The position numbers and the translations under genes are program-made. Below the pieces are notes generated by a model that worked only from the letters and a program-made list of their open reading frames with translations, was not told where the DNA came from and made no database searches. A DNA stretch of 64,000 bases from Campylobacteraceae bacterium (lineage in GTDB: Bacteria > Campylobacterota > Campylobacteria > Campylobacterales > Sulfurovaceae), in contig JAMOOP010000130.1 of NCBI GenBank assembly GCA_027065385.1, positions 20,028-84,027 on the forward strand, in the 5' to 3' direction. Below, one piece after another: positions 20,680-37,500 of the stretch. Numbering within the stretch: the first letter of the stretch is position 1; each line of letters starts with the position of its first letter.

Positions 20680-20937
20680 ATGCTTAATTTCTTAATTTTA
20701 CTAATTCTGTTTGCAATATTTCTATCATTTATAAGGTTTATAAAAGGACCTCATTTAACAGATAGAGTTGTTGCTTTTGACACTATGGGGATAATTGCTG
20801 TATCTCTTTTAGTTTTGCTCTCTGTTACAGTTAAAGATAGTATATATCTTGATGTAGCTTTTGTATTTGCAGTTATTGGATTTATTGGTACAATAATTTT
20901 TGCACGATTTAATGTGGCAAAGGATAGTGATGCTTAA
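20680..20937 (+). CDS. MnhF/MrpF-like subunit of Mrp-linked membrane complex
   Basis: 85 aa, three TMs, RFIKGPHLTDRVVAFDTMGII..DVAFVFAVIGFIGTIIFAR. Confidence 0.85.
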   Translation: MLNFLILLILFAIFLSFIRFIKGPHLTDRVVAFDTMGIIAVSLLVLLSVTVKDSIYLDVAFVFAVIGFIGTIIFARFNVAKDSDA

Positions 20938-21244
20938 TGTTATTGGATTGATTTTAATAACTCCTGGTGCTACTCTTTTAGTTATTAGTGCTATTGGGCT
21001 TTTACGAATGCCTGATACTATTACTAGAATGCACGCAGGAACAAAAGCCTCAACGCTCGGTAGTCTGCTTGTTATTATGGGAGTTGCATTTTTAGAGCCT
21101 ACTTTATGGTTTAAACTTCTCTTTTTAGCTCTTTTTATCTTAATTACTAACCCTCTCTCATCTTCAATTTTAGCTAGAAGTACTTACCTTAAACACGGTT
21201 TTTTTAATATGAGTGGAATGGACGATTTAAAGGATAATAGATGA
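20930..21244 (+). CDS. MnhG/MrpG-like subunit
   Basis: GATLLVISAIGLLRMPDTITRMHAGTKASTLGSLLVIMG. ATG at 20930 preferred over the TTG at 20900. Confidence 0.85.
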   Translation: MLNVIGLILITPGATLLVISAIGLLRMPDTITRMHAGTKASTLGSLLVIMGVAFLEPTLWFKLLFLALFILITNPLSSSILARSTYLKHGFFNMSGMDDLKDNR

Positions 21245-21489
21245 TTGGATTAATAGTATTAGCTATATTTATAACACTTATAATCTTAGCTGTATTGATT
21301 ATAGAAAATGATGATTTACCCCATAGTGTTATTCTATTTATGGGATTTGGATTAGGGAGTGTAATACTCTATTTCATATTTTCAGCACCTGATGTAGCAT
21401 TGACAGAGGCTGTAATTGGAACTGGTATTAGTGGAGTGGTATTTTTAGTAACTCTTTTACAGATAAGAAGTAAGGAGATAAAGAGATGA
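21241..21489 (+). CDS. MbhD-like (DUF4040) subunit
   Basis: VILYFIFSAPDVALTEAVIGTGISGVVFLVTL, typical MbhD/MnhA C-terminal-type fragment. Confidence 0.8.
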   Translation: MIGLIVLAIFITLIILAVLIIENDDLPHSVILFMGFGLGSVILYFIFSAPDVALTEAVIGTGISGVVFLVTLLQIRSKEIKR

Positions 21490-22193
21490 ATTTAAAAAAA
21501 GAGATTAGAGTCTCTACCCTTTTTATATCGCTTATAGTATCTATTATGACTATTTTACTACTTCCAATATTTTTAGATTTTAATCTTGCTTCAAACTCTT
21601 TAGGAGATAGCTTACTTAATATAAATGAGATAGAGACCAATAGTGCAAATGGTGTAACCTCTGTTGTTACATACTTTAGGGGTTTTGATACCTTAGGAGA
21701 GGTTACTATTCTATTTTTATCTATCTTTGGTATTGGTTTAGGATTAGATGGGTATAGAGATAAATTAAATATCTTTGCTTATGAGAATAGACTACTTAAA
21801 AGTAGTGTTGATATTCTATTTCCTCTTATTATTCTATTTGGATTTTATATTATAATTCATGGACATCTAAGCCCTGGTGGTGGATTTCAAGGTGGTGTTA
21901 TAATTGCGAGTGCATTTTTATTAATGTTTTTAGCTAAAGGAGATGAGTTTTCTCTAAATCATAAAATTATATCTATTACAGAAGCACTAAGTGGAGCAGG
22001 ATTTATACTAATTGGTATATTGGGCGTTCTTTTAGTAGATAGGTTTTTAGGGAACTTTTTACCACTTGGTACTATAAAAGAGCTTTTTAGTGGTGGAGTT
22101 ATACCACTTATATATATATTTGTAGGGATTAAGGTCTCTGCTGAAATTACTGCTTTAGTTGAGTATTTTATAAGGATTAAAGATGTTAGATAG
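21486..22193 (+). CDS. MnhB/MbhE-F-like subunit
   Basis: YFRGFDTLGEVTILFLSIFGIG and IIHGHLSPGGGFQGGVIIASAFLLMFLA. Confidence 0.85.
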   Translation: MNLKKEIRVSTLFISLIVSIMTILLLPIFLDFNLASNSLGDSLLNINEIETNSANGVTSVVTYFRGFDTLGEVTILFLSIFGIGLGLDGYRDKLNIFAYENRLLKSSVDILFPLIILFGFYIIIHGHLSPGGGFQGGVIIASAFLLMFLAKGDEFSLNHKIISITEALSGAGFILIGILGVLLVDRFLGNFLPLGTIKELFSGGVIPLIYIFVGIKVSAEITALVEYFIRIKDVR

Positions 22194-22569
22194 TTTTAAT
22201 CAGACACAATTTTTACATAGTGTAATTACTATCGGGTCACTATTAATTTTTGCTATAGGGTTAGTTGGAGTTTTAATTAAAAAGAACCTATTTAAGATTT
22301 TTCTCTCATTTGCTATTATTGAGAGTAGTCTATTTATCTATTTTATTGGAATGCACTTTGAGGTAGAAAAGGTAGCTCCAATGTTAACAGACAAGGTTAC
22401 AAAGTTCTCTACTAATATGACAGACCCTGTTCCACAAGCTATGATTTTAACTACTATTGTTATTGGTATTGCTGTTTTGGCTTTAGCACTATCTTTTATT
22501 ATTAACTATTTTAAACTAACTAATAATATGAGAGTTGATGATATGAATGAGTTAGGAGATGAGAAGTGA
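22183..22569 (+). CDS. MnhC/NuoK-like subunit
   Basis: AIGLVGVLIKKNLFKIFLSFAIIESSLFIYFIG..DPVPQAMILTTIVIGIAVLALALS. Confidence 0.85.
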   Translation: MLDSFNQTQFLHSVITIGSLLIFAIGLVGVLIKKNLFKIFLSFAIIESSLFIYFIGMHFEVEKVAPMLTDKVTKFSTNMTDPVPQAMILTTIVIGIAVLALALSFIINYFKLTNNMRVDDMNELGDEK

Positions 22570-23957
22570 GCCTTTTATATTTTGTAATCTTACCACTTTT
22601 AGCATCTTTTTTAACTCCATTTTTTAGAAATTATCTAAGATATATCTCTTTGGCAGTTAATCTTATGCTATTAGCTCTATCATTTAGCTTTTTAGGCTCT
22701 CTTCCTATAAGAGAGTCTATCTCTTTTGACTCTCCTCTTAGTATAGCATTTGTATTGGATAGTGCTTCACTATTTTTTATAGTTCTATTTCTATCTATAA
22801 TGACACTATTTTCAATATATGCTATTAGAGATAAGAGTAGAAAAGATATATTTATCTTAACCAATATGCTACTAGCTAGTGTATCGGGACTTGTATTAAG
22901 TGGAGATATTTTCAATATATATATCTTTTTTGAAATAGCATCAATTTCAGCCTATATTTTAACCTCTCTACAAAAAGATAAAGAGGCGTATAGTGGTGCT
23001 ATTAGATATATGATAATGGGTGCAGTAGCCTCTATATTTTTATTAATTGGAATAATGACAATATATCTAAATTTAGGAACTTTAAATCTAGTAACTATTG
23101 GTGAGAAGTTTTCAACTATAGATAATCAGATTAAATCTCTTACTCTTATATCACTATTTATAGGATTTGGAATAAAAGCGGAGATTTTCCCTTTAAACTT
23201 TTGGGTAGTTGACATCTATCAAGCATCTACTAATAGAGTAAATGCCCTATTTAGTTCTGTTTTATCAAAAGCTTATATATTTCTATTTTTTCATATTGCC
23301 TATATTTTAGGAGTAAATATTAAGATACTTAGTTTTTTAGCAATTTTAGGTATTATCTCTTTTGGTGTCTCTGAAATATCTGCTTTAAGTAGTAAAAATT
23401 TAAAAAGAGTTTTTGCCTACTCAACTTTAGGGCAAATTGGGGTCTTATTTATTGCTCTATCTAGTAGTAGTATAGTAGCTACAACAGGGGCTATATTTTT
23501 GATTGCACTTCATGCCATAACTAAACTAATGCTATTTTTATCTTTAGATATTTTAGAAGATAGATTTAGTAGTGTTAATATAGATATATTTAAAAAGTTT
23601 AATTCACTCTTTTTAATCTCTATTTTTGCTATTGGATTTTTATCTCTTTTAGGAGTTCCTCCATTTGGTGGATTTATAGCTAAACTTACAATACTAGAGG
23701 GTTTAATAACTAAAAGTGAATATATTTTAGTTGGAGCTATTTTGGTTATCTCTTTAATCGAAGCTGTTTACCTATTTAAACTTTTAGGTATGAGTCGAGA
23801 AGCAGGAGAGAAGAGTAGTTTAGATATACCTATTTTAAAAAGAGGAGTTTTATCTATTATGGCTCTATCTATTATATATCTTGGAATTTTTCCTGAACTA
23901 TTTTTACAAATATGTAAAAGTGTAGCTTTAGCTCTTGTAGGAGTAGATAATGTTTAG
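22566..23957 (+). CDS. antiporter-like subunit 1 (MnhD/NuoN/MbhH family)
   Basis: Polytopic; DIFNIYIFFEIASISAYILTSL, LKRVFAYSTLGQIG, LLGVPPFGGFIAKLTI. Confidence 0.88.
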   Translation: MSLLYFVILPLLASFLTPFFRNYLRYISLAVNLMLLALSFSFLGSLPIRESISFDSPLSIAFVLDSASLFFIVLFLSIMTLFSIYAIRDKSRKDIFILTNMLLASVSGLVLSGDIFNIYIFFEIASISAYILTSLQKDKEAYSGAIRYMIMGAVASIFLLIGIMTIYLNLGTLNLVTIGEKFSTIDNQIKSLTLISLFIGFGIKAEIFPLNFWVVDIYQASTNRVNALFSSVLSKAYIFLFFHIAYILGVNIKILSFLAILGIISFGVSEISALSSKNLKRVFAYSTLGQIGVLFIALSSSSIVATTGAIFLIALHAITKLMLFLSLDILEDRFSSVNIDIFKKFNSLFLISIFAIGFLSLLGVPPFGGFIAKLTILEGLITKSEYILVGAILVISLIEAVYLFKLLGMSREAGEKSSLDIPILKRGVLSIMALSIIYLGIFPELFLQICKSVALALVGVDNV

Positions 23958-25563
23958 TTTTGAAATTACACCTTTAGGTAACCTATTTCTTGCACTTAAT
24001 TTAGCTGTATTTGGCTCTTTAATCTTTATGAAAAGAGAAAACTTAGCCTTAATGTTACTTCTATTTCTCTCTTTGAGTACTATATTTTATGCCAATAATT
24101 TAATTACACTATTTATTGGTTGGGAGGTAATGAGCTGGAGTAGCTACTTTATAATAGTAAAAGATGTTAAATTAAAAACAGCACAAAAGTATATTATATT
24201 TAATCTAGGTGCAGGTTTTGCACTTTTGGGGGCTATAGTTTTAATATATAATTTTAGTGGAACTTTTATCTATAGTGATATAATTTTTAATAAAGTTCCA
24301 ATACCATTTAGAACACCTATATATATTTTACTCTTTATTACTATATTTGTAAAATCTGGTATTATCCCTTTTCACTATTGGGTAATTGATACCTATAAAG
24401 AGGCAGAAGATATATTTAGTGCTATCTTAAGTGCTATTATCTCAAAAGCTGGTATTTTTCTATTTATTACCCTATTTATAAAAATAATAGGATATAAATA
24501 TATAGAGACAAATCTATTAGATATTGTAGCGTGGCTTGGTGTAATCACCTCTATAGTTGCCACATTTAAAGCAATATCTCAAAATAGCCTAAAGAGACTT
24601 TTAGCATACTCATCTATTGCACAAGTTGGATATATTGTAACAGTATTAACTATCTTAAATAGTAGTGGATTAGAGGCTGGATTATATCATACCGTTATTC
24701 ACACATTTGTAAAACTACTTCTATTTGTAAATATAGCATCAATTATCTATATTACTAAAAAAGATAAATTTAGTGAGTTGGGAGGATTAATATATAGTTA
24801 TCCTACCCTATTTATTATGCTTCTAATTGGAATAATAGGATTGGCTGGAATGCCACCACTTGGAGGATTTAGTAGTAAGTTTCTTATATATACAACTTTA
24901 CTAGAAGAGAAAAAAGCTCTACTTTTAGTAGCCATTATGTTTAGTTCAGCTTCTGCTTTTCTATACTGCTATAAACTAATATATGGTATCTATCTTGGTC
25001 ACTCAAAAACCGATAAAAAAGAGCATAGAAAACTATCAACTCTATATTATATACCTCAATATATAGCCTCTTTAATCTTAATAGTTTTAGGCTTTTTACC
25101 ATCTTTAGCTATAGAGATATTTAATCCAATATTAATCTCTTTAGGATTTAAACCAACTAACTTCTCAACTCTATTTGAACTAAACTCAAACTTTGCATCA
25201 TTTAATGGTGGGGCTATTATGGCAATATTTATTGCTATATTTGTAGTAATTTTACTTATTGTAACCTCTATAAAAAATAGAACTGTGAAAACGAGAGATA
25301 AGTTAGATATAAGCTACTGTGGAGAAGTACCAAATCCAAACAGTAATCTACACTACGGTTATGGAGTTGGAGAGGAGTTAAGACGAGTTAGCTTTATTGG
25401 ATTTATACTAAAAAATAGTGTATCTCCATACTGGGAAAGAGTATTAGTAGTTGTTAAAGAGAGTTCTATCTTTTTAAAGAGACTATATAGCTTAACTATT
25501 CAAAATGTAGGAGTAGTTACTATAATACTCTTTAGCATACTACTTTATATAGGAGTTGAATAA
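23950..25563 (+). CDS. antiporter-like subunit 2 (NuoL/M/MbhH'-like)
   Basis: LITLFIGWEVMSWSSYFII, LKRLLAYSSIAQVGY, GLAGMPPLGGFSSKFLI. Confidence 0.88.
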   Translation: MFSFEITPLGNLFLALNLAVFGSLIFMKRENLALMLLLFLSLSTIFYANNLITLFIGWEVMSWSSYFIIVKDVKLKTAQKYIIFNLGAGFALLGAIVLIYNFSGTFIYSDIIFNKVPIPFRTPIYILLFITIFVKSGIIPFHYWVIDTYKEAEDIFSAILSAIISKAGIFLFITLFIKIIGYKYIETNLLDIVAWLGVITSIVATFKAISQNSLKRLLAYSSIAQVGYIVTVLTILNSSGLEAGLYHTVIHTFVKLLLFVNIASIIYITKKDKFSELGGLIYSYPTLFIMLLIGIIGLAGMPPLGGFSSKFLIYTTLLEEKKALLLVAIMFSSASAFLYCYKLIYGIYLGHSKTDKKEHRKLSTLYYIPQYIASLILIVLGFLPSLAIEIFNPILISLGFKPTNFSTLFELNSNFASFNGGAIMAIFIAIFVVILLIVTSIKNRTVKTRDKLDISYCGEVPNPNSNLHYGYGVGEELRRVSFIGFILKNSVSPYWERVLVVVKESSIFLKRLYSLTIQNVGVVTIILFSILLYIGVE

Positions 25564-26441
25564 TGTTTTTAGATGTAATATATATGCTAATCTTAGCATA
25601 CTTTTTTGGTTTTTTATACTACGGACTATATAGAAATATATCTGCTAGAGTTCATGGAAGATTTGGACCATCTATAGCTCAATCTTTTTACGATAGTATT
25701 AAATTATTTCTAAAAGATACAACCATAAATTTTGGTTGGGCATTTTATGGTGGAATAGTTATTATGGCAACAGGTGCAGTAACTACTGTTTTATTTATTC
25801 CATACCTAAATAACTCTAACTCTCTAACAGGATTTAGCTCTTATGGAAATTTAATAGTAGTTTTATATCTTATGGTTTTAGGACCTTTGGGAAATGCTAT
25901 TGGGATTGGAAGTAATGGAAACCCATTTGGAGCTATGGGAATAACTAGAGGTTTGACTAGACTTATAGGTTTAGAGTTACCTTTTTATATAGCATCTATT
26001 GGCATTATGATAGCCTCTCAAAGTGCAGATATTACAACTATTATGCATAATCAATCACAAACTTGGAATGTTTTTTCACACCCACTACTATTTATTGGAG
26101 CTTTTATCTCATTTTTAGGATTTATGGGAAAATCTCCATTTGATGTAGTAGGTGCGCCACAAGAGGTATATAGTGGACCAGCCACTGAATTTAGTGGTAA
26201 ATTTTTTGCTCTTGCCTTGTCTCAAAGTGCTATATTCTCATTTGCTAAACTTCTTTTAATGGTTGATTTATTTTTAGGTGGAGCATCTAATCTATTAGAG
26301 TTAGTTATTAAGACATTTATTCTATTTATTATGGCTGTTTTTGTAGGGAGCGTTTATGCTAGATTTACTACTATTCAAAGTGTTGAATTTTTAATTCGCA
26401 TACCGACTATTATTGCTTTAGTTGGACTATTTTTTATATAG
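25563..26441 (+). CDS. NuoH/MbhM-like membrane subunit
   Basis: GPSIAQSFYDSIKLFLKD, FLGFMGKSPFDVVGAPQEVYSGPATEFSGKFFAL. Confidence 0.9.
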   Translation: MFLDVIYMLILAYFFGFLYYGLYRNISARVHGRFGPSIAQSFYDSIKLFLKDTTINFGWAFYGGIVIMATGAVTTVLFIPYLNNSNSLTGFSSYGNLIVVLYLMVLGPLGNAIGIGSNGNPFGAMGITRGLTRLIGLELPFYIASIGIMIASQSADITTIMHNQSQTWNVFSHPLLFIGAFISFLGFMGKSPFDVVGAPQEVYSGPATEFSGKFFALALSQSAIFSFAKLLLMVDLFLGGASNLLELVIKTFILFIMAVFVGSVYARFTTIQSVEFLIRIPTIIALVGLFFI

Positions 26442-26449
26442 GAAAAGTT

Positions 26450-27106
26450 ATGAAAATTTTTAAAAAATTAATACTACCAATAGTAATGGTAGTAGCAAGT
26501 GTAGTAAATTTAGCTCTTATTATCTCTTTATACATATATATTCAAGCTGTAACGCATGAAAATATAAATGAGTGTACCAACTCAACAATAAATGATTTTA
26601 ATGTTAAAATATGCACATATAGAGCCAATAATAGAGAGGTAGATATAACAACTTATGATTTTAATCAAAAAAGAGTAATTATTTTAAGTGCAAATAACTC
26701 TTATGATAGTAATCAAACCAAGTTTATAACTAAAGTATTAAAAGAGAGTATAGGAGAACCTAAAAAAGTAAAAGCAATTAAAATAGTTGCACACTCAAAT
26801 ATTGCTGAAAATAGTGACTCTCTAGCTAAAAAAAGAGCTTTAAAACTAAAAAATATTATTAGTAAAATAGGTTGTAGTAGAAATACTATCTCAACTAAAT
26901 ATAATAAAGAGCCATTTTTAAATGAGATAGATATGAAACTAAATGGAACTCTACTTAGAGTTTTAGAGCTACATTCAGATGTAGTAGAGTTAAAAAATGA
27001 GCTAAATATCTCAAAAGGAAGAAAAATAAAAAAAGAGCTACTTGATAAATATAGAGATAGATTAGAGCCTTATAGTAGTAGTGTTATTTTGGTCTCTTTT
27101 AAATAG
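26450..27106 (+). CDS. membrane-anchored protein with divergent OmpA-like C-terminus
   Basis: N-terminal TM; KAIKIVAHSNIAENSDSLAKKRALKLKNIISKIG resembles the OmpA core. Confidence 0.5.
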   Translation: MKIFKKLILPIVMVVASVVNLALIISLYIYIQAVTHENINECTNSTINDFNVKICTYRANNREVDITTYDFNQKRVIILSANNSYDSNQTKFITKVLKESIGEPKKVKAIKIVAHSNIAENSDSLAKKRALKLKNIISKIGCSRNTISTKYNKEPFLNEIDMKLNGTLLRVLELHSDVVELKNELNISKGRKIKKELLDKYRDRLEPYSSSVILVSFK

Positions 27107-28922
27107 TAAAGGATTTATAATTAGTAGATTAAATACTCAAAAAGAATATACCGTTATAGAACTCTTTGCAGGTGCAGGTGGTTTAGCCTTAGGATTGGAA
27201 CAAGCAGGATTTAGTACTAAAATAGCTGTAGAGTTAAATAGATGGGCAATCGAAACACTAAAAGCTAATCGCCCACATTGGAATATTGTTCAAGAGGATA
27301 TTACTAAGATTTCAGAAATTGGAATTAAATCCTATCTCAGAGATAATCAGGAGATAGATTTATTATCAGGTGGGTATCCTTGTCAATCTTTTAGTTATGC
27401 AGGTAAAAAACTCGGATTAGAAGATACTAGAGGTACACTATTTTCCGATTTTGCTAAAATCCTAAAAGAGATTAAGCCTAAAATGTTTTTAGCTGAAAAT
27501 GTAAAAGGTTTAGTAACTCATGATAAGGGTAGAACTTTACAAGTTATGATTGATGTCTTTAAAGAGGTTGGATATTTTGTTCAATACAAAGTTCTTAATT
27601 CAGTAGATTATGGAGTAGCTCAAAAGAGACAAAGAGTTTTAATTATTGGAACAAGAGAGGATATTAGAGAAAAGATTGGTGAAGATTATACTTTTCCTAA
27701 ACCATATAAAAAGAAATTAGTTCTAAAAGATGTCTTAAAAGATGTTCCTCCATCTCCTTGTGCAACCTATAATGAAAAGAAAAAAGAGGTATTAAAATAT
27801 GTAAAAGCTGGTGGTTGTTGGAGAGATTTACCTGATGAGGTAGCGAGAGAGTATATGATGAGTACTTACTTTATGGGAGGGGGTAGAACTGGAATTGCAA
27901 GAAGATTATCTTGGGACGAAGCAGGACTTACAGTTTTATGTACCCCATCACAAAAACAGACTGAAAGATGTCACCCTGATGAATTAAGACCTTTTAGTGT
28001 ACGAGAAAATGCTAGAATTCAATCTTTTCCTGATAGTTGGGAGTTTAAAGGCTCAATGGCAGAGCAGTATAAACAGGTAGGAAATGCTGTACCTGTTAAT
28101 ATGGCTAAAGAGGTTGGATTATCTATTATAGAATATCTAAGCAAACTAGAGGAAAAAAGTATGAAAAGATATAATCTTAGTTTTATAGATGATAAAGATT
28201 TATTTAACCATGTTAAAGAGACTATAGAAAAATATAGATTTAAAATAACTCTAAAAGAGTTTAATAAAAATTTAATAGACCCTATAAAATTAACCTTTGA
28301 TTCTAAAGTGTATGGAAAAAGTATAGAAGAGATTATTGAAGCAGAGTCAATAAGACAGATGGATAAATCAAATAGCAATAATATTGGATATTTCCAACAA
28401 AATATCTTTAAATATATATATCATAAAGATACAAAACAGACAAATTGGAGTGTTCCTAAAAAAGGTTTTGATATTATAAATGAGGTTGATAAAATCTATG
28501 TAGAAATGAAAAATAAACACAATACTATGAACTCCTCATCTTCTCAAAAAACCTTTATGAGAATGCAGAGTAAAATTTTAAATACCCCAAATGCTGAATG
28601 TATGTTAGTAGAGGTCATAGCTAAAAATAGTCAAAATATACCATGGCAAATCTCTTTAGATGGAGAGAGTATAACTAATAAACAGATTAGAAGAGTATCA
28701 ATAGATAAATTTTATGAGTTAGTTACAGGAGAGAAAGAGGGATTTAAACAGTTAGTAGAGACTCTACCAAAAGTAATGAATGATGTTTTAGAAGAAATAA
28801 AACAAAATGGTATTGAAAATAGTGTATTTAGTGAATTAAAAAATATAGATAGTAATATCTTAAAAAGTTTGTATCTCTTGTCTTTTAAGAAGTATGAAGG
28901 GTTTGAGAAATTTGATATATAA
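27081..28922 (+). CDS. C5 cytosine methyltransferase fused to Eco47II-like restriction endonuclease
   Basis: MTase: ELFAGAGGLALGLEQAGF, GGYPCQSFSYAGKKLGLEDTRG, ENVKGL, QVGNAVPV. C-terminal half: IGYFQQNIFKYI..KGFDIINEVDKIYVEMKNKHNTMNSSSSQKTFMRMQ (FD..VEMK nuclease-like core). Confidence 0.85.
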   Translation: MLFWSLLNSKGFIISRLNTQKEYTVIELFAGAGGLALGLEQAGFSTKIAVELNRWAIETLKANRPHWNIVQEDITKISEIGIKSYLRDNQEIDLLSGGYPCQSFSYAGKKLGLEDTRGTLFSDFAKILKEIKPKMFLAENVKGLVTHDKGRTLQVMIDVFKEVGYFVQYKVLNSVDYGVAQKRQRVLIIGTREDIREKIGEDYTFPKPYKKKLVLKDVLKDVPPSPCATYNEKKKEVLKYVKAGGCWRDLPDEVAREYMMSTYFMGGGRTGIARRLSWDEAGLTVLCTPSQKQTERCHPDELRPFSVRENARIQSFPDSWEFKGSMAEQYKQVGNAVPVNMAKEVGLSIIEYLSKLEEKSMKRYNLSFIDDKDLFNHVKETIEKYRFKITLKEFNKNLIDPIKLTFDSKVYGKSIEEIIEAESIRQMDKSNSNNIGYFQQNIFKYIYHKDTKQTNWSVPKKGFDIINEVDKIYVEMKNKHNTMNSSSSQKTFMRMQSKILNTPNAECMLVEVIAKNSQNIPWQISLDGESITNKQIRRVSIDKFYELVTGEKEGFKQLVETLPKVMNDVLEEIKQNGIENSVFSELKNIDSNILKSLYLLSFKKYEGFEKFDI

Positions 28923-28946
28923 TATCTAAATAATAAGGAAGATAAA

Positions 28947-29558
28947 ATGCAAGAAGGATTTATAGACTATCAAAAAGTCTTAGAAAATGAGGAACATGCA
29001 ATAAAAAGTACCCAAAGTGCAATACAAAAAGCTATAGATTGGTTTCGCTCTAAGAGTATGTTTGTTTTAGCTTATGGAACAGGTTGTGGGGCTATTGAGA
29101 TGCCACCAACCTTTACAAGTCGATATGATATTGAGAGGATTGGAGTAGTAGGAGTTGCAACCCCTAGACAAGCTGATGTTTTAATAGTTTCAGGATATTG
29201 CTCTTATAAGACTCTCAAAAGAGTTATACGAAGTTATGAGCAGATGAGTGAACCAAAATATGTTATAGCTTTGGGGAGTTGTACTATTAATGGTGGTATG
29301 TATTGGGACAGTTATAATACTATTAAGAGATTAGAAGATTATATACCTGTAGATATATTTGTTAATGGGTGTATGCCTAGACCTGAAGCTCTGATTGAGG
29401 GGTTTGTTAAACTTCAAGATAATATTAAAAATAGTAAAAAAGAGGCTGGATTTATTAAATATAGAGAAAATAATGAGTTTTATAAAGAAAACCAAAAAAA
29501 GATATTTGGGGATAATATAGAACCTACTTATGAGGCTAATTTTGCAGGAATGAATTAA
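28947..29558 (+). CDS. NuoB/MbhJ-like Fe-S subunit
   Basis: GTGCGAIEMPP, TPRQADVLIVSGYCSYK, ALGSCTINGGMYWDSYN, VNGCMPRPEAL. Confidence 0.9.
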   Translation: MQEGFIDYQKVLENEEHAIKSTQSAIQKAIDWFRSKSMFVLAYGTGCGAIEMPPTFTSRYDIERIGVVGVATPRQADVLIVSGYCSYKTLKRVIRSYEQMSEPKYVIALGSCTINGGMYWDSYNTIKRLEDYIPVDIFVNGCMPRPEALIEGFVKLQDNIKNSKKEAGFIKYRENNEFYKENQKKIFGDNIEPTYEANFAGMN

Positions 29559-29570
29559 TATCTAAAACAA

Positions 29571-32500
29571 ATGAAAAAAGAAATAGAATTAGAAATACAA
29601 AAACGGAAAGATATTTATAAATCATCTCCTGATGATATGATTTCTGCATATAATAGAGAACTTGAAACAGAAAAAGAGTACAACGGTAGACAACTTTTAG
29701 AACTTCTTCAAAATGCTGACGATGAAAATTCAGATGAAGTCTATATTGAGTTAAATACTAAAAATAGTCAGCTAATTATTGCTAATAGAGGTACACATTG
29801 TAAATCATTCAGCCTCGATGGTATTAAATCTTTAATGATTTCAAATTTAAGTTCAAAAGTTACAAAAAAATATATAGGGAATAAAGGATTAGGGTTTCGT
29901 TCTATTATAAATTGGAGCAATAAAGTTATTATTAATAGTAATAATCTTGATATTATTTTTTCTAAAGAGATAGTTAATGATATATTTGATGAACTTTTCA
30001 CCAAAGATGATGAAAATAAATTTATTGAAAAGAGAAATTTGCCACAAGGCACAAAACCTATTCCTTTTTTGGCTATGCCAAAAGTAGTTGAAAATATACA
30101 AAATAAATGGATAACAAAAATAACCATAGAGTATAAAGATAGTTTTTTAGATGATATAAAAGAACAGATAAATGACTTAAAAAATGAAATTTTACTTTTT
30201 TTAAATCACTTAGTAAAACTAACGCTTAATATTGATGGAGAAATTAGAGAAGTTATAAAAAAACAAGATAATGAATTTATTTATATAAATAATGAAAAAT
30301 GGACAATATATGAGGATGAAGCTAAACTTCCTAAGAGGTTATGGGAAAAAAAGAATGAAGAAGAATTTTATAATCTAAAACTTGCTCTTAAAGAGGATTA
30401 TGATATTCAAAATAATTTACTTTTTGCCTATTTTCCCACTCATATAAGTATGGATTTTCCTTTTATTATTCATGGTACATTTGATTTAAATAGTTCAAGA
30501 AATAGTATTAATAAAAGTGATAAAAATAGATATATCTTAGAAAAACTTGTATTGTTAATTACAAAAACAGCAAAAGAGTTAACCCAAAATGAAGTAAGTT
30601 ATAAAGCATTAGAATTTTTATTATATAAGGATGAACATCCAACTTTAGAGACATTAGGTTTTTATGAACAGTTAGATAATGCCATAGAAGAATTGGAAAT
30701 CTTTCCTTGTATAGATAATACTTATCGGAAAAGAGAAGATGTAGTTTATATTAGTAATGAATTTTCCAATTTTATAACAAAAGTAAATGCAGTTGACTTA
30801 TTTTCAAATCTTTTAATTTCGACAGAACAAAGCGTTATAGATGTATCTATATATGAACTAAATAATTCCATTTCTACTTCTACTGAGAAACTCAATCTCT
30901 TAAGTCAAAAAATTTCAAATATAGAGGATAGAGTCAATTTAATTTATATTTTTTATCATACATTTAAAAGAGAAAATAAATTGTTGTTTCTCATTGATGA
31001 AAAAAAAGAGTTTATTCCTATAGAAGATAAAGTTTATACTCCTAACTTAGGTGTGCATATTGAAATTCCTAGTTATGTAGATATTAGATTTATACATAAT
31101 GAACTTTATAAAAAATTACTTCAAAAATTTAATGCTACACCTCAACAATTAGTTGAGAAATTAAAGGAAATGACTAATATTGAAAGTTATAATGCAAAAT
31201 CTATTTTAAATAAAATTGTAGTAGCTACGAATAAAGAGTTAAAAAAAGACAATATAGATAAAATAAGAATTATTAAAGAGATGGTATTATCTTTATATTC
31301 TAACTATAAATCTCTTGATAGTAAAATTTTTATTGATGCTAAAGTGCAATTAATTGCAAAAAATAAGAGCATAGTTAAAGCAAATGATTTATACTTATCA
31401 AAAACCTATCCATCTGGAGAATTAACTGAAGAGTTATTTGGAGAAATATTTAAAGATAATCAATTTTTAATTGATATTAATTTTTGGGAATTTAAATATG
31501 AGAATAAAAATGATATTGAAAGCTTTTTTTTATGGTTAGGAGTTAATCAATATACTAAATATAGTATTTCTAATATAAATAAACAATGGGAATATAAAAA
31601 AAATATTTTTAAAAATACAAACTATACAAAAATATATGATGAAGAAATTATACAAATTGATAATATAGAGTTAATTTTGCATTATATATCTAAAGAAAAA
31701 TTATTAACTTGGATTTTATTGGATAGAAAACTTTTTAGTGAGATATTAGATAAAAAGATATATAAATATTTTTATAGAACATACCATTATTTAACAGATA
31801 CCATCTCTTATATTAGATTTCAATTATCGAAAGCTTTTAAAGACTATTTTATAACTACAGATGAAAAATTTTCTAAAATTATAAATGATAATCCAATTAA
31901 TTTTAATTATTATTTATTAAAAAAATATGCTTTATCACAAAGAGATATTGAAAGTTTAATTTTAAAGTTAGGTGCAGTTGAAGAGTTTAAAGAGTTATCA
32001 AAAGATAAAGTCATTGATATTTTAAAAAAATTATCTTTTACATCTCTAAATGGAGAATATACTCAAAGAGTATATCAGTTGGCATATAAAAATTTTTATG
32101 AACAATATTTTTATATTCATCTTGGAGAGATTAATTTATTTGCAAAAAAAGATGGTATTTCTAGTTATTTTAATCAAAATAAAGTTTATTATAGTGGCAA
32201 TACAAAAATACCCAAACAGATTATTAGAAGAAAAGCTATTTTTAATTTTCCAAAAGGATATGGTAGTAAAAAAGTTACAGATTTTTTTGCTATAAATGAT
32301 TTAAGTAAATTAGAACTTAAATTAATTAGTAAAATTCCTATATCTCATTTAACGGATAAATTCAATAAGCTTTTTAAAAGATTAATTCCATTTATTTTAG
32401 CTTATAGGATAAAAGATATTGAAAAAGATAAAACTGCATATAGTGAATTTAATAAATTAAAAAAAATATATTTAATTCTTTGTGAAGAGGTTCGATATGA

Positions 32501-33905
32501 TTTTGAAACTCAAGAGTATGAGTTAGAATATAGTGATTATTTAAAAGATGGAAATGAGTATCTTATTCATGTGAATAGAGATAGTACAATTGATGAGTTA
32601 AGAAATGATTTTGATTTTATTGATACTTTTTCAGATATTTTAGGTTTAGTTTTTGGACTTGAAGAGACAAAAATATTTAGAGATATTATTAAAAATAATA
32701 TCAATTATATTGAAAGAATGATTATTAATAATTTAGGAATAGAAGCATTACATAGAGCTAAATCTATAATGGGAATAGATAATGAAGAAGAATTATTTTG
32801 GAAAATAGTTTATAAATCTCTTAATAGAGAATATATAGATAAATCTAATAATTTATTAGACTTAATAAAAAATGATTTAGAGTTAAAAATAGATATAACA
32901 ACAATAAATTATCAAAATTTAAATGCCAAAAACAGTTTAAAAGTAATAAAAGAGCTATTTATAGAATTAGGATTAGAGGTTGAAAATTATAATAATCACG
33001 AACCATATTATCAACTTAATTTTTCAAAATATCATAATTATAATCTATTAAACTGTTTTCATGATAATCAAAAAAGATTTGAACAGCATCTTTATAAATA
33101 TTGCAAAAAGAACTCAAAAGAGAAAGATTTTTTATTTCTTTTAGATAAATATACTCATAATAGTGAATTTGTAAAAGACAATGTATTAAATATAGATTAT
33201 CAAAATATTGTTCAACAATTTATTAAAGAAAATTTTGAATTTAATATAGATAGTCCAATAGATGAGGTTATAGATTATCAATCAATATACGAAAAAAATA
33301 AATTAGAGATTGATTTTGAAAAGATTAAAGGGCAAAGAGAATATGATAGCCTTTTATATTTTGATAAGTTAGATGAAATTAAAAAATATATAAAAAGTTT
33401 AAAAAAAGAAGAACAGCCCAAGTCAAATAATTCTCCTAAGAAACCCCCTAAACCCATTATTGAAAATCCAAAAATAGAAAAGCCTTTTCTACCTAAAAGA
33501 AATGGAGGAAAAGGAGGTAAGGGTGGAACTTATAATCCTAATAGAGATAGAGCCAAAGAAGATAAAGGGAAAAATGCAGAAAAAAATGTTGTTCAAACGC
33601 TAAAAAAAGAGTTTGGAGAAAATAATGTTGATTGGGTAAATGATGATACTATTGGATATGATATTAAATATAAAAATAAACAAGATATATGGAAATATGT
33701 AGAGGTTAAAGTTTATTCAAATAGTAAATTCTTTTTGAGTAAAAATGAAAAGAGATTTGTAGAGAAAAATAAAGAAAATTATGAGATTTTTTTAGTAGCA
33801 GAAGAAGAGATTTATAGGCTAACAAATATAGATTTTTATGATAGAGATAAATTTATTTTAGAGGCTAATAGTTATGAAGTTTATTATAATATCAAAAAGA
33901 GATAA
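29571..33905 (+). CDS. large sacsin-like (Hsp90-type ATPase) protein with C-terminal DUF3883 nuclease-like domain
   Basis: N-terminus RQLLELLQNADDENSDEVYIEL..ANRGTHCKSFSLDGIKSL..YIGNKGLGFRSIINW; C-terminus GKNAEKNVVQTLKKEFG..GYDIKYKN..KYVEVKVYS. Confidence 0.82.
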   Translation: MKKEIELEIQKRKDIYKSSPDDMISAYNRELETEKEYNGRQLLELLQNADDENSDEVYIELNTKNSQLIIANRGTHCKSFSLDGIKSLMISNLSSKVTKKYIGNKGLGFRSIINWSNKVIINSNNLDIIFSKEIVNDIFDELFTKDDENKFIEKRNLPQGTKPIPFLAMPKVVENIQNKWITKITIEYKDSFLDDIKEQINDLKNEILLFLNHLVKLTLNIDGEIREVIKKQDNEFIYINNEKWTIYEDEAKLPKRLWEKKNEEEFYNLKLALKEDYDIQNNLLFAYFPTHISMDFPFIIHGTFDLNSSRNSINKSDKNRYILEKLVLLITKTAKELTQNEVSYKALEFLLYKDEHPTLETLGFYEQLDNAIEELEIFPCIDNTYRKREDVVYISNEFSNFITKVNAVDLFSNLLISTEQSVIDVSIYELNNSISTSTEKLNLLSQKISNIEDRVNLIYIFYHTFKRENKLLFLIDEKKEFIPIEDKVYTPNLGVHIEIPSYVDIRFIHNELYKKLLQKFNATPQQLVEKLKEMTNIESYNAKSILNKIVVATNKELKKDNIDKIRIIKEMVLSLYSNYKSLDSKIFIDAKVQLIAKNKSIVKANDLYLSKTYPSGELTEELFGEIFKDNQFLIDINFWEFKYENKNDIESFFLWLGVNQYTKYSISNINKQWEYKKNIFKNTNYTKIYDEEIIQIDNIELILHYISKEKLLTWILLDRKLFSEILDKKIYKYFYRTYHYLTDTISYIRFQLSKAFKDYFITTDEKFSKIINDNPINFNYYLLKKYALSQRDIESLILKLGAVEEFKELSKDKVIDILKKLSFTSLNGEYTQRVYQLAYKNFYEQYFYIHLGEINLFAKKDGISSYFNQNKVYYSGNTKIPKQIIRRKAIFNFPKGYGSKKVTDFFAINDLSKLELKLISKIPISHLTDKFNKLFKRLIPFILAYRIKDIEKDKTAYSEFNKLKKIYLILCEEVRYDFETQEYELEYSDYLKDGNEYLIHVNRDSTIDELRNDFDFIDTFSDILGLVFGLEETKIFRDIIKNNINYIERMIINNLGIEALHRAKSIMGIDNEEELFWKIVYKSLNREYIDKSNNLLDLIKNDLELKIDITTINYQNLNAKNSLKVIKELFIELGLEVENYNNHEPYYQLNFSKYHNYNLLNCFHDNQKRFEQHLYKYCKKNSKEKDFLFLLDKYTHNSEFVKDNVLNIDYQNIVQQFIKENFEFNIDSPIDEVIDYQSIYEKNKLEIDFEKIKGQREYDSLLYFDKLDEIKKYIKSLKKEEQPKSNNSPKKPPKPIIENPKIEKPFLPKRNGGKGGKGGTYNPNRDRAKEDKGKNAEKNVVQTLKKEFGENNVDWVNDDTIGYDIKYKNKQDIWKYVEVKVYSNSKFFLSKNEKRFVEKNKENYEIFLVAEEEIYRLTNIDFYDRDKFILEANSYEVYYNIKKR

Positions 33906-33907
33906 TT

Positions 33908-34996
33908 ATGCAATTAATAGATAAATTTGAAACCCTTATATTTCAAATAGAAGAGATTCATAATATATTGCAAAATAGAGCAATTAAAAGTGTTAGTAGA
34001 AATTTAACTATTCGTAATTGGCTTATTGGTTATTATATTATTGAGTATGAACAAAAAGGGGAAGATAGAGCTAAGTATGGTGATAGGGTTATAGATAATT
34101 TAGTAAAAAGATTAAAACATATAAAAGGAATGTCAAAAAGTAATCTTAAACTATTTAGACAATTCTATACCTCATATCCACAGATAATAGAGGTTATATC
34201 AAATGATTTTAAACAGATAAATCAAAAAAGCCTGACACTGTCTGACCAATTTATAATTCCTACAGAAAAACTTATAAATAGTTTCTCTTTTAGTCATTTT
34301 ATTGAACTCTTAAAAATTAACGAACCAACTAAACGCCTATTTTATGAGATTGAAGGAGTTAAAGGAAATTGGAGTGTGCGAGAATTAAGAAGACAGATAA
34401 ATTCGGCAACTTATGAAAGAATAGGATTATCTAAAGATAAAAAAGATATGATTAAAACTATTCAATCTAAAAGTGAAACTATATTACCTCAACAGATTAT
34501 TAAAGACCCATATATATTAGAATTTACAGGTTTAGAAGAGAAGATAAAATATAGTGAAAATGATTTAGAAGAGGCACTACTTAATCATTTTCAAGATTTT
34601 TTATTGGAACTTGGTAATGGTTTCTGTTTTGAGGCTAGACAAAAGAGAATTTCAATAGATAATGAGCATGATAGAGTTGATTTAGTATTTTATCATCGTA
34701 TTTTAAAATGTCATATTCTTATAGATTTAAAGATACGAGAGTTCTCTTATGCTGATATTGGGCAGATGAATTTTTATTTAAACTTTTACAAAAATGAGAT
34801 AATTCAGAAGACAGATAATCCACCTATTGGATTAATATTATGTGCCAATAAAAATAAAACTAAAGTTGAATATGCTACAGCAGGATTAGATAATCAACTT
34901 TTTGTATCAAAATATAAAATAAATTTACCATCAATTAAAAAAATAGAAACTTTTTTACATGATGAATTTATTAATCTAAATAAAGGATTGAAATGA
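33908..34996 (+). CDS. DUF1016 / PDDEXK nuclease (YhcG-like) protein
   Basis: LTIRNWLIGYYIIEYEQKGEDRAKYGDRVIDNLVKRLKHIKGMSKSNLKLFRQFY; DRVDLVFYHRILKCHILIDLKIREFSYADIGQMNFYLNFY. Confidence 0.88.
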   Translation: MQLIDKFETLIFQIEEIHNILQNRAIKSVSRNLTIRNWLIGYYIIEYEQKGEDRAKYGDRVIDNLVKRLKHIKGMSKSNLKLFRQFYTSYPQIIEVISNDFKQINQKSLTLSDQFIIPTEKLINSFSFSHFIELLKINEPTKRLFYEIEGVKGNWSVRELRRQINSATYERIGLSKDKKDMIKTIQSKSETILPQQIIKDPYILEFTGLEEKIKYSENDLEEALLNHFQDFLLELGNGFCFEARQKRISIDNEHDRVDLVFYHRILKCHILIDLKIREFSYADIGQMNFYLNFYKNEIIQKTDNPPIGLILCANKNKTKVEYATAGLDNQLFVSKYKINLPSIKKIETFLHDEFINLNKGLK

Positions 34997-35541
34997 TAGA
35001 AATTTTAAAAAAACAGTACGAAATAGAAGAAAAAGGTAATAGACTCTTTAAAATCAATATAGAAAAAGATAAGCTCTTAAATACTATAGATTTTATTAGT
35101 CTAAATAGTAACTTTATAACACTATCTCAAATAGCTTGTGCTGATTGGATAGAAGATGAGATTTTTAGTTTAAATTATATTTTAACTACTGATAGAAGAG
35201 ATAAAAATTTAATGGTTGAGGTTAATATTCCAAGAGTTGATAGTAAACTTCCAACCCTTTTAAATCTTTTTCCACAAGCTGAAGTTATGGAGAGAGATTT
35301 ACATGAGATGTATGGTATTGATTTTATTGGAAACCCTACTCTATACGATTTTGCTCTTGAAGATTGGAAAGAGATACCACCTTTAAGAAGAGAGTTTGAT
35401 ACTTTAGAGTATGTAAATAGTAACTTTGAATTTAGAAAAGGTAGAGAAGATAATAGAGATGTTAAGGTTGAGATAAAAAGAAGAAGAGCCGAAGCTAAAA
35501 AATTAAAAGCTAAAAAGGAGGCTAAAAATGGTAGCAGATAA
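34993..35541 (+). CDS. NuoC/MbhK-like subunit
   Basis: PRVDSKLPTLLNLFPQAEVMERDLHEMYGIDFIGNP..PPLRREFD. Confidence 0.88.
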   Translation: MIEILKKQYEIEEKGNRLFKINIEKDKLLNTIDFISLNSNFITLSQIACADWIEDEIFSLNYILTTDRRDKNLMVEVNIPRVDSKLPTLLNLFPQAEVMERDLHEMYGIDFIGNPTLYDFALEDWKEIPPLRREFDTLEYVNSNFEFRKGREDNRDVKVEIKRRRAEAKKLKAKKEAKNGSR

Positions 35542-36640
35542 TAGACTAATAAAAATCTATCATGGTCCTCAACACCCTGGTATTACTGGAAATATGAGTG
35601 TAGAGTTAGACCTTTTAGGAGAGACTATAAAAGGGGCTAGAACTCATGTAGGGTATCTGCACCGAGGGTTTGAAAAGTTGGTTGAGAGAAGAACTATTAT
35701 TCAAGCCTTTACTATAGTTTGTAGAATTTGTGTGCCTGAACCTGACCCAAATGAGGAGAATTTTGCAAGAGCCATTGAAAATTTAGCAGGTATTGAAATA
35801 AGTGATAGGGCAAAATATATTAGAACTATGGTTTTAGAGATGGCTAGAATTGCCTCTTTAATGTTATGGATTGGAGGACAGAGTGGCTCTATTGGACTTG
35901 GAACTGTTGGGCAGTGGAGTATATATGATAGAGATTTAATCTTAGACCTTTTTGAAGAGTTAACAGGAGGTAGAGTATATCACATGTATATTTACCCTGG
36001 GGGAGTTAGAAGAGAACTTCCTAATGGATTTTTAGAGAAACTTTCTCAACTTTTAGACTATTTGGAGAAGAGACTTCCACTATATGATAGTATCTTTTTT
36101 GAAAATAGCACCTTTAAAAAAAGAGCTATAGGGGTTGGAGTTGTTAAAAAAGAGGAGGCTTTAAAAAATGGGTATGTAGGGCAAGTTTTAAGAGGTTGTG
36201 GAATTAAAAGAGATGTAAGACGAGATAATCCATATTTGGTTTATAATAGTCTTGATTTTGAAATTCCAACTTTTGAGGGGTGTGATGTCTATGCTAGAGC
36301 AATGGTAAGAAGAGCTGAAATTAGAGAGTCTATTAAGATACTTAGACAAGTAATTAAACAGATGCCAAAAGAGGGACTAATTATGCAAAAGCTCCCAAAA
36401 CATAGAAAATTTAAAATCCCAAAAAATGATACATTAGTCTCAACCGAGTCAGCTAGAGGAGAATTTAATTATTATATGGCAGGAGATGGAACAGAGAAAA
36501 TTAGAAGAATGCAAGTAAGAGGTGCTTCACTTATTCATGGATTTACACTTTTAGAGAAACTTCTAATAGATGAAGAGCTTTCAAATGTGGCTATGATTAT
36601 GAATTCACTCGGTATCTGCCCACCTGAAATTGAAAGATAG
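35528..36640 (+). CDS. NuoD / [NiFe]-hydrogenase-large-subunit-like (group-4-like) protein with CxxE motifs
   Basis: YHGPQHPGITGNMSVELDLLGETI, VGYLHRGFEKLVERRT, CRICVPEP, C-terminal GICPPEIER. Confidence 0.9.
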   Translation: MVADNRLIKIYHGPQHPGITGNMSVELDLLGETIKGARTHVGYLHRGFEKLVERRTIIQAFTIVCRICVPEPDPNEENFARAIENLAGIEISDRAKYIRTMVLEMARIASLMLWIGGQSGSIGLGTVGQWSIYDRDLILDLFEELTGGRVYHMYIYPGGVRRELPNGFLEKLSQLLDYLEKRLPLYDSIFFENSTFKKRAIGVGVVKKEEALKNGYVGQVLRGCGIKRDVRRDNPYLVYNSLDFEIPTFEGCDVYARAMVRRAEIRESIKILRQVIKQMPKEGLIMQKLPKHRKFKIPKNDTLVSTESARGEFNYYMAGDGTEKIRRMQVRGASLIHGFTLLEKLLIDEELSNVAMIMNSLGICPPEIER

Positions 36641-36649
36641 GAGAGAGAT

Positions 36650-37042
36650 ATGAAATTTAATTTAGATATAAAAGGAACAATAGCCCCATTTAATGCCATA
36701 GCACAACTTTTTGAACAGCCCAATACTATCTGTTATCCTAGTGAAAAGAAAGATACTATAAGTGGATATAGAGGATTTCACACTAATCTATTAACAAGTT
36801 GTATTGGGTGTGCAAATTGTCAAGATGTCTGTATGAATGAGGCTATAGATATGATACCAATAGAAGAGGATAAAAATCCAAAAAATAGTAGTGGGTGTAT
36901 TCCAAGAATAGATTATGGAAGATGTTGTTGGTGTAGTCTATGTACTGATGTTTGTCCTCCTAGCTCTCTTAAATTAGAAGATGATTGTATTTTTGCAACT
37001 GATAGTAGCAATAATTTTTTATATATGCCAAAGGATAAATAA
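36650..37042 (+). CDS. NuoI/MbhN-like 2[4Fe-4S] ferredoxin subunit
   Basis: CIGCANCQDVC and CCWCSLCTDVCPPSSL. Confidence 0.88.
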   Translation: MKFNLDIKGTIAPFNAIAQLFEQPNTICYPSEKKDTISGYRGFHTNLLTSCIGCANCQDVCMNEAIDMIPIEEDKNPKNSSGCIPRIDYGRCCWCSLCTDVCPPSSLKLEDDCIFATDSSNNFLYMPKDK

Positions 37043-37500
37043 TGTTAGCAAAATTTATATTACTTTTTATAGTTTGGATAGGACTTACAAACTCGTTAAA
37101 TATTCAAGAGTTAATAGTTGGAGCAGTAGTAGCTTTTACTGTTGCTAGATTTTTTACTCCAAACAGAGAGCTACATTTAAGGAAATTGGCTTTAAAATAT
37201 ATTAAATTTATTCCAATATTTTTAAAAAATTTAGTTCAATCAAATATAGCTGTAGCTAAAATTGTTTTAAATCCAAAATTACCAATTAATACAGGTATAG
37301 TTAAACTTCAAACCTCTTTAAAAGATGATTATGATAAGTTAATTTTAGCAAATGCCATAACTCTAACACCTGGTACAATTACTGTAGAGCTTAGAGATAA
37401 AGAGCTTTTTATCCATATTTTAAATATGGGTAGTTTAGATAGGGAGGTTTTACAAAAAGAGATTGTTGATGAATTAGAGAGAGGTATAACGCACAATTAA
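37042..37500 (+). CDS. MnhE/MrpE-like subunit
   Basis: NIQELIVGAVVAFTVARFF..LANAITLTPGTITVELRDKELFIHIL. Confidence 0.88.
   Translation: MLAKFILLFIVWIGLTNSLNIQELIVGAVVAFTVARFFTPNRELHLRKLALKYIKFIPIFLKNLVQSNIAVAKIVLNPKLPINTGIVKLQTSLKDDYDKLILANAITLTPGTITVELRDKELFIHILNMGSLDREVLQKEIVDELERGITHN

Follow-up and report, generated by a model that had tools for sequence, protein, structure and literature searches.

A putative MBS/Mbx-type complex whose large subunit lacks the [NiFe] site, encoded in a Campylobacterota genome close to Sulfurovum

The window, meaning the whole stretch of 64,000 nucleotides analysed here, was found to contain an operon spanning positions 20680 to 37500 approximately. It comprises Mrp-type small subunits, two antiporter-like subunits, the subunits M, J, K, L and N, and MnhE, together with inserted genes that do not encode complex subunits. 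The large subunit MbsL, a NuoD-like protein, is the main subject of this study. The features are as follows.

20680 to 22569, + strand: five ORFs for small Mrp-type subunits (MnhF, MnhG, MnhB and MnhC types), named from their position and sequence type rather than from profiles
22566 to 23957, + strand: second antiporter-like subunit (MrpD/MbsH type), assigned by sequence type and position; its homologues adjoin the antiporter gene in relatives
23950 to 25563, + strand: antiporter-like subunit (MbsH-prime type); best PDB match 6u8y_X, 1.9e-50
25563 to 26441, + strand: MbsM, NuoH-like membrane anchor; best PDB match 6u8y_M, 6.3e-40
27081 to 28922, + strand: cytosine methyltransferase fused to an Eco47II-type nuclease, not a complex subunit; Pfam DNA_methylase 3.8e-91, RE_Eco47II 2.3e-82
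28947 to 29558, + strand: MbsJ, NuoB-like, with proximal cluster ligands C47, C112 and C142; best PDB match 6u8y_J, 2.1e-59
29571 to 34996, + strand: TmtA-like protein and YhcG (DUF1016) nuclease, not complex subunits; PADLOC TmtA 1012.7 bits, PDC-S02 6.5e-125; Pfam YhcG_C 2.4e-56
34993 to 35541, + strand: MbsK, NuoC-like; best PDB match 6u8y_K, 8.7e-16
35528 to 36640, + strand: MbsL, NuoD-like large subunit, 370 aa; best PDB match 6u8y_L; placed in the MBS-like tree group
36650 to 37042, + strand: MbsN, NuoI-like ferredoxin subunit, standalone, 130 aa; best PDB match 6u8y_N, 5.2e-19
37042 to 37500, + strand: MnhE-type antiporter subunit; Pfam MNHE 2e-39

The subunit set of an MBS complex with a Mrp-type antiporter arm is complete, the small subunits apart from MnhE having been assigned by reading. 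For all five neighbours of MbsL that were examined (J, M, K, N and the antiporter subunit at 23950 to 25563), 6u8y was the best solved match. The sequence of MbsJ also carries the three-cysteine site for a proximal [4Fe-4S] cluster with a shortened motif, a trait that defines MBS. It reads GTGCGAIEMPP where Pyrococcus furiosus reads CTGCGGIEMPP: the ligand C28 is kept as C47, the non-ligand C25 corresponds to Gly44, and C112 and C142 match the remaining two P. furiosus proximal-cluster ligands. These ligand columns hold cysteine in every aligned row that has a residue there. MbsN exhibits two CxxCxxC-type cluster motifs, and its match to the 611-position NCBIfam profile PRK13984 (putative oxidoreductase) covers the first 131 positions. 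Reading of the flanks of the operon revealed no sulfur-specific gene.

The inserted genes lie on the same strand as the operon at two junctions. The M-J junction holds the methyltransferase/nuclease gene and an ORF of 218 aa (26450 to 27106), located between MbsM and this restriction-modification gene, for which no match was found in NCBIfam, Pfam or PADLOC and whose middle part appears OmpA-like by eye only. The J-K junction holds the TmtA-like and YhcG genes. Same-genus genomes fill these junctions differently (loci L021, L023, L122, L123, L125 and L126). In one genome (G027), K directly follows J and an apparent antitoxin/PIN pair stands after M; in another (G006), M and J adjoin and are followed by an AAA-like ATPase. 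The names antitoxin/PIN and ATPase were given by reading, not by profile. In G015, M-J is contiguous, two apparent antitoxin/PIN pairs follow J, and a relative of the YhcG protein (79%) precedes K on another contig; M-J is also contiguous in G028. TmtA was found in none of the five other same-genus genomes, and some Campylobacterota loci, L024 and L025 among them, exhibit M-J-K-L without inserted genes. Defence genes seem to have been inserted repeatedly at these two junctions of an energy operon.

With regard to MbsL, the full ORF begins at 35528; position 35720, given as the start in the preliminary description, is the codon of C65. The motifs VC65RIC68VPE71 and GIC364PPE367IER reported there are present as read, and the residue numbers are right. 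In the N-terminal region, HRG (45-47) is followed by V64, C65, R66, I67, C68, V69, P70 and E71, then by PD and by GIE (88-90). The protein ends at G362-I-C364-P-P-E367-I-E-R370 with nothing beyond R370; the local CxxC proteins of L109-L111 and L114 likewise stop directly after the motif, so that the lack of a C-terminal extension is uninformative about maturation. Pairwise and multiple alignments agree with the earlier assignment: where CxxC group-4 proteins have the first cysteine of each pair, MbsL has C68 and C364, and where they have the second, it has E71 and E367. An extra cysteine, C65, precedes C68. Chance or misalignment as the source of the motif was ruled out, given that the columns agree in both kinds of alignment and that the motif is also present in five same-genus genomes and in most of 80 wider relatives. 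The C-terminal motif occurs in the MbsL copy of each of the five same-genus genomes, and four of the five also span and have the N-terminal motif. The AlphaFold model of MbsL has a sound global fold (mean pLDDT 81.5, pTM 0.87), and a fold search with it scored complex I chains equal to 6u8y_L. Its pLDDT drops under 50 for residues 64-68 and 365-370, and the geometry of the site was therefore left unread.

A phmmer search of MbsL against all PDB chains returned 6u8y_L, the P. furiosus MbsL, as the top chain (E=1.4e-90, 307 bits, 41% identity), with complex I next (5.7e-62) and a far weaker match to 6cfw_L, the MBH hydrogenase subunit (1.8e-39). The P. furiosus chain reads RICVPEPD and ends in NCPPDIDR. 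Counted along the alignment, C68 and C364 of the window protein are equivalent to C85 and C385 of P. furiosus MbsL, and in both former [NiFe] pairs the first cysteine alone is kept, as in MBS. The two CxxC motifs of group-4 [NiFe] hydrogenases are absent, E71 and E367 standing in the second-cysteine columns, and the columns of the complex I quinone-site residues His38 and Tyr87 (Thermus thermophilus Nqo4 numbering) are occupied by T20 and V69. The statement in the preliminary description that the protein is neither a classical hydrogenase nor complex I is thus borne out. In P. furiosus MbsL, C85 and C385 remain and the other two cysteines of the [NiFe] site are gone; a C85A/C385A MBS showed activity comparable to that of the wild type, and catalysis has been assigned to the proximal [4Fe-4S] cluster bound by three MbsJ cysteines (PMC7684303).

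From these matches, we assign the window protein to the large subunit MbsL of a bacterial MBS/Mbx-type complex. Since the [NiFe] site has likewise been lost in the solved archaeal MBS, the altered motif is best read as a family trait rather than a new metal site. The window MbsL is a new bacterial case of the known MBS family, and its motif is the known signature of that family. The novelty that had been implied for the CxxE/CxxE pattern is therefore not supported, as this is the already described state of MBS. It had been stated at the outset that the claim would fall if the pattern proved to be the signature of a characterised Mbx/MBS clade, which is what we found, P. furiosus differing only by Asp for Glu at the last acid. 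No relevant publication on Mbx/MBS in Sulfurovum or Campylobacterota emerged from literature searches.

A tree of 100 rows, built with a quick method and SH-aLRT values alone, placed the window and P. furiosus MbsL in a single MBS-like group of 80 rows (SH-aLRT 100), set apart from complex I (14 rows), the CxxC group-4 proteins (4 rows) and a pair of 550-aa proteins. P. furiosus MbsL is distant (41% identity) and has a long branch in this tree. The pair, from two Campylobacterota loci of the same order (L017 and L112), comprises group-4-like large subunits of 550-560 aa with ERICFMDN and the end ICQGDLDR; cysteines are kept, Asp stands in the second-cysteine columns, and the branch is separate. 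The window's own clade of 14 rows comprises Campylobacterota, four Chromatiaceae and one Spirochaetales MAG, and is almost wholly made up of Sulfurovum/Nitratifractor-type Campylobacterota and Chromatiaceae. Readable MbsN frames in this clade are short (134 to 211 aa, and 130 aa in the window), and the MbsN open frame reaches about 600 aa in most other relatives (L037-L047 and L050-L103). The long form suggests a fused extra redox module resembling NCBIfam PRK13984, and its occurrence in most other bacterial relatives means that the chemistry may differ within the group.

Relatives were found by a scan of genome contigs, which yielded at least 583 stretches with a confirmed relative in one species-level genome collection and shows that MBS-type complexes are widespread in bacteria; 80 loci were kept. 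Column counts were made on 84 rows, namely these 80 loci, the window and three loci from the same genus. All 83 rows filled at position 71 have Glu or Asp there, a count biased by the scan pattern, which was RICVPEPD; the 32 rows without RICVPEPD were therefore counted apart and show Glu in 22 and Asp in 10. Position 367 is acidic in 81 of 82 filled rows. Cysteine occupies position 68 in 74 of 83 filled rows (Ala in 8, Ser in 1), position 364 in 55 of 82 (Tyr in 27, reading HTYPPEIER, for example in L057, L065, L072 and L079) and position 65 in 70 of 83. One or both of C68 and C364 are replaced in 27 rows with the acids kept, and nine of the 27 Tyr364 rows also have Ala or Ser at position 68, so that all four ligand cysteines are lost. 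Within the window's clade, the window and all 13 other rows that span both motifs keep both cysteines and both acids. The drift of the cysteines to Ala, Ser or Tyr beside near-invariant acids indicates that the retained thiolates do not form a conserved metal site; it supports the view that the cysteines of MbsL are dispensable relics. The near-invariance of the acids and the presence of Glu in the E367 column of complex I suggest that the carboxylates have a general structural role.

Taking donor, acceptor, ion and direction of flow from work on P. furiosus, in which MBS passes electrons from ferredoxin to sulfur (PMC7684303), we consider it likely that this MbsL belongs to an MBS/Mbx-type complex without a [NiFe] site which transfers electrons from reduced ferredoxin to sulfane sulfur and performs Mrp-type Na+/H+ transport. 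Reduced ferredoxin would deliver electrons through the two MbsN clusters to the proximal [4Fe-4S] cluster in MbsJ. MbsL, MbsJ and MbsM would form a chamber in which sulfane sulfur reacts with an iron of this cluster, left open because the cluster has just three cysteine ligands. The membrane arm would couple this reaction to Mrp-type Na+/H+ transport. The former bridging-cysteine columns are occupied by E71 and E367, which would act as structural or electrostatic residues. In Thermotoga maritima, mbxA is up about fourfold with sulfur, and MBX has been proposed as a sulfur reductase (PMC9431562).

Sulfurovum/Nitratifractor-type Campylobacterota and Chromatiaceae are known for sulfur oxidation and CO2 fixation. 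As these organisms make up almost all of the window's clade, the complex with standalone MbsN could run mainly in reverse in them, with an ion gradient, together with sulfide or sulfane sulfur as donor, driving the reduction of ferredoxin for CO2 fixation. Three genes with an oxoacid:ferredoxin oxidoreductase gamma domain in the genome are consistent with this, and a standalone MbsN fits a soluble ferredoxin partner. Nevertheless, the P. furiosus complex works from ferredoxin to sulfur, and we regard reversed flow as unlikely.

The original proposal for Mbx/Ehr complexes, in which quinone or NADP rather than sulfur is reduced, appears still less probable here. In earlier work, P. furiosus Mbx was described as a ferredoxin:NADP oxidoreductase and quinone was considered for the Ehr complexes of bacteria, and the NCBIfam profile NADH-quinone oxidoreductase subunit D scores above its cut-off for the window MbsL. 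However, no NAD(P)-binding subunit was found among the operon genes, MbsN is only 130 aa long, Thr and Val stand in the columns of the quinone-site His and Tyr, and the genome encodes a separate NuoD of its own complex I. An altered metal site of two cysteines and two carboxylates, to which the filling of all four ligand columns and its conservation throughout the window's clade had pointed, is very improbable and was rejected, since P. furiosus MbsL has the same pattern with no metal described and remains active as a double cysteine mutant, the cysteines are replaced in the 27 rows of the wider group while the acids persist, and the Glu in the E367 column is shared with complex I. Of the earlier suggestion of an altered metal site or non-hydrogen chemistry, the latter part is retained as likely and the carboxylate-bridged site is removed as a false lead. 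Two strong matches to [NiFe] hydrogenase large subunits, one more that is split, and hypD also occur in the genome; because the genome has [NiFe] hydrogenase large subunits of its own, Hyp genes are uninformative about the MbsL site.

Compared with known systems, the putative ferredoxin:sulfane-sulfur complex of the window most resembles P. furiosus MBS (PDB 6u8y; PMC7684303), with which it shares the C..E and C..acid motifs in matching positions, the three-cysteine MbsJ proximal cluster, the loss of quinone-site residues, the Mrp-type membrane arm and the J-K-L-M-N subunits. It differs in having Glu in place of Asp as the last acid of MbsL, the additional C65, Gly for the non-ligand MbsJ C25, a shorter MbsN, a bacterial host, and defence genes between its subunit genes. 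The MBX of T. maritima (PMC9431562), a bacterial MBS homologue with 13 subunits that is induced by sulfur, is similar by its description. The group-4 [NiFe] hydrogenases (MBH, Ech and FHL) have the fold and ligand columns in common with it, and MBH also the Mrp-type arm, whereas they carry four cysteines in the ligand columns where the window has Glu as the second residue of each pair. Respiratory complex I (NuoD/Nqo4 and NuoB) has the same fold and the Glu in the E367 column; in contrast to the window MbsL, it lacks both cysteines and possesses the quinone His/Tyr pair.
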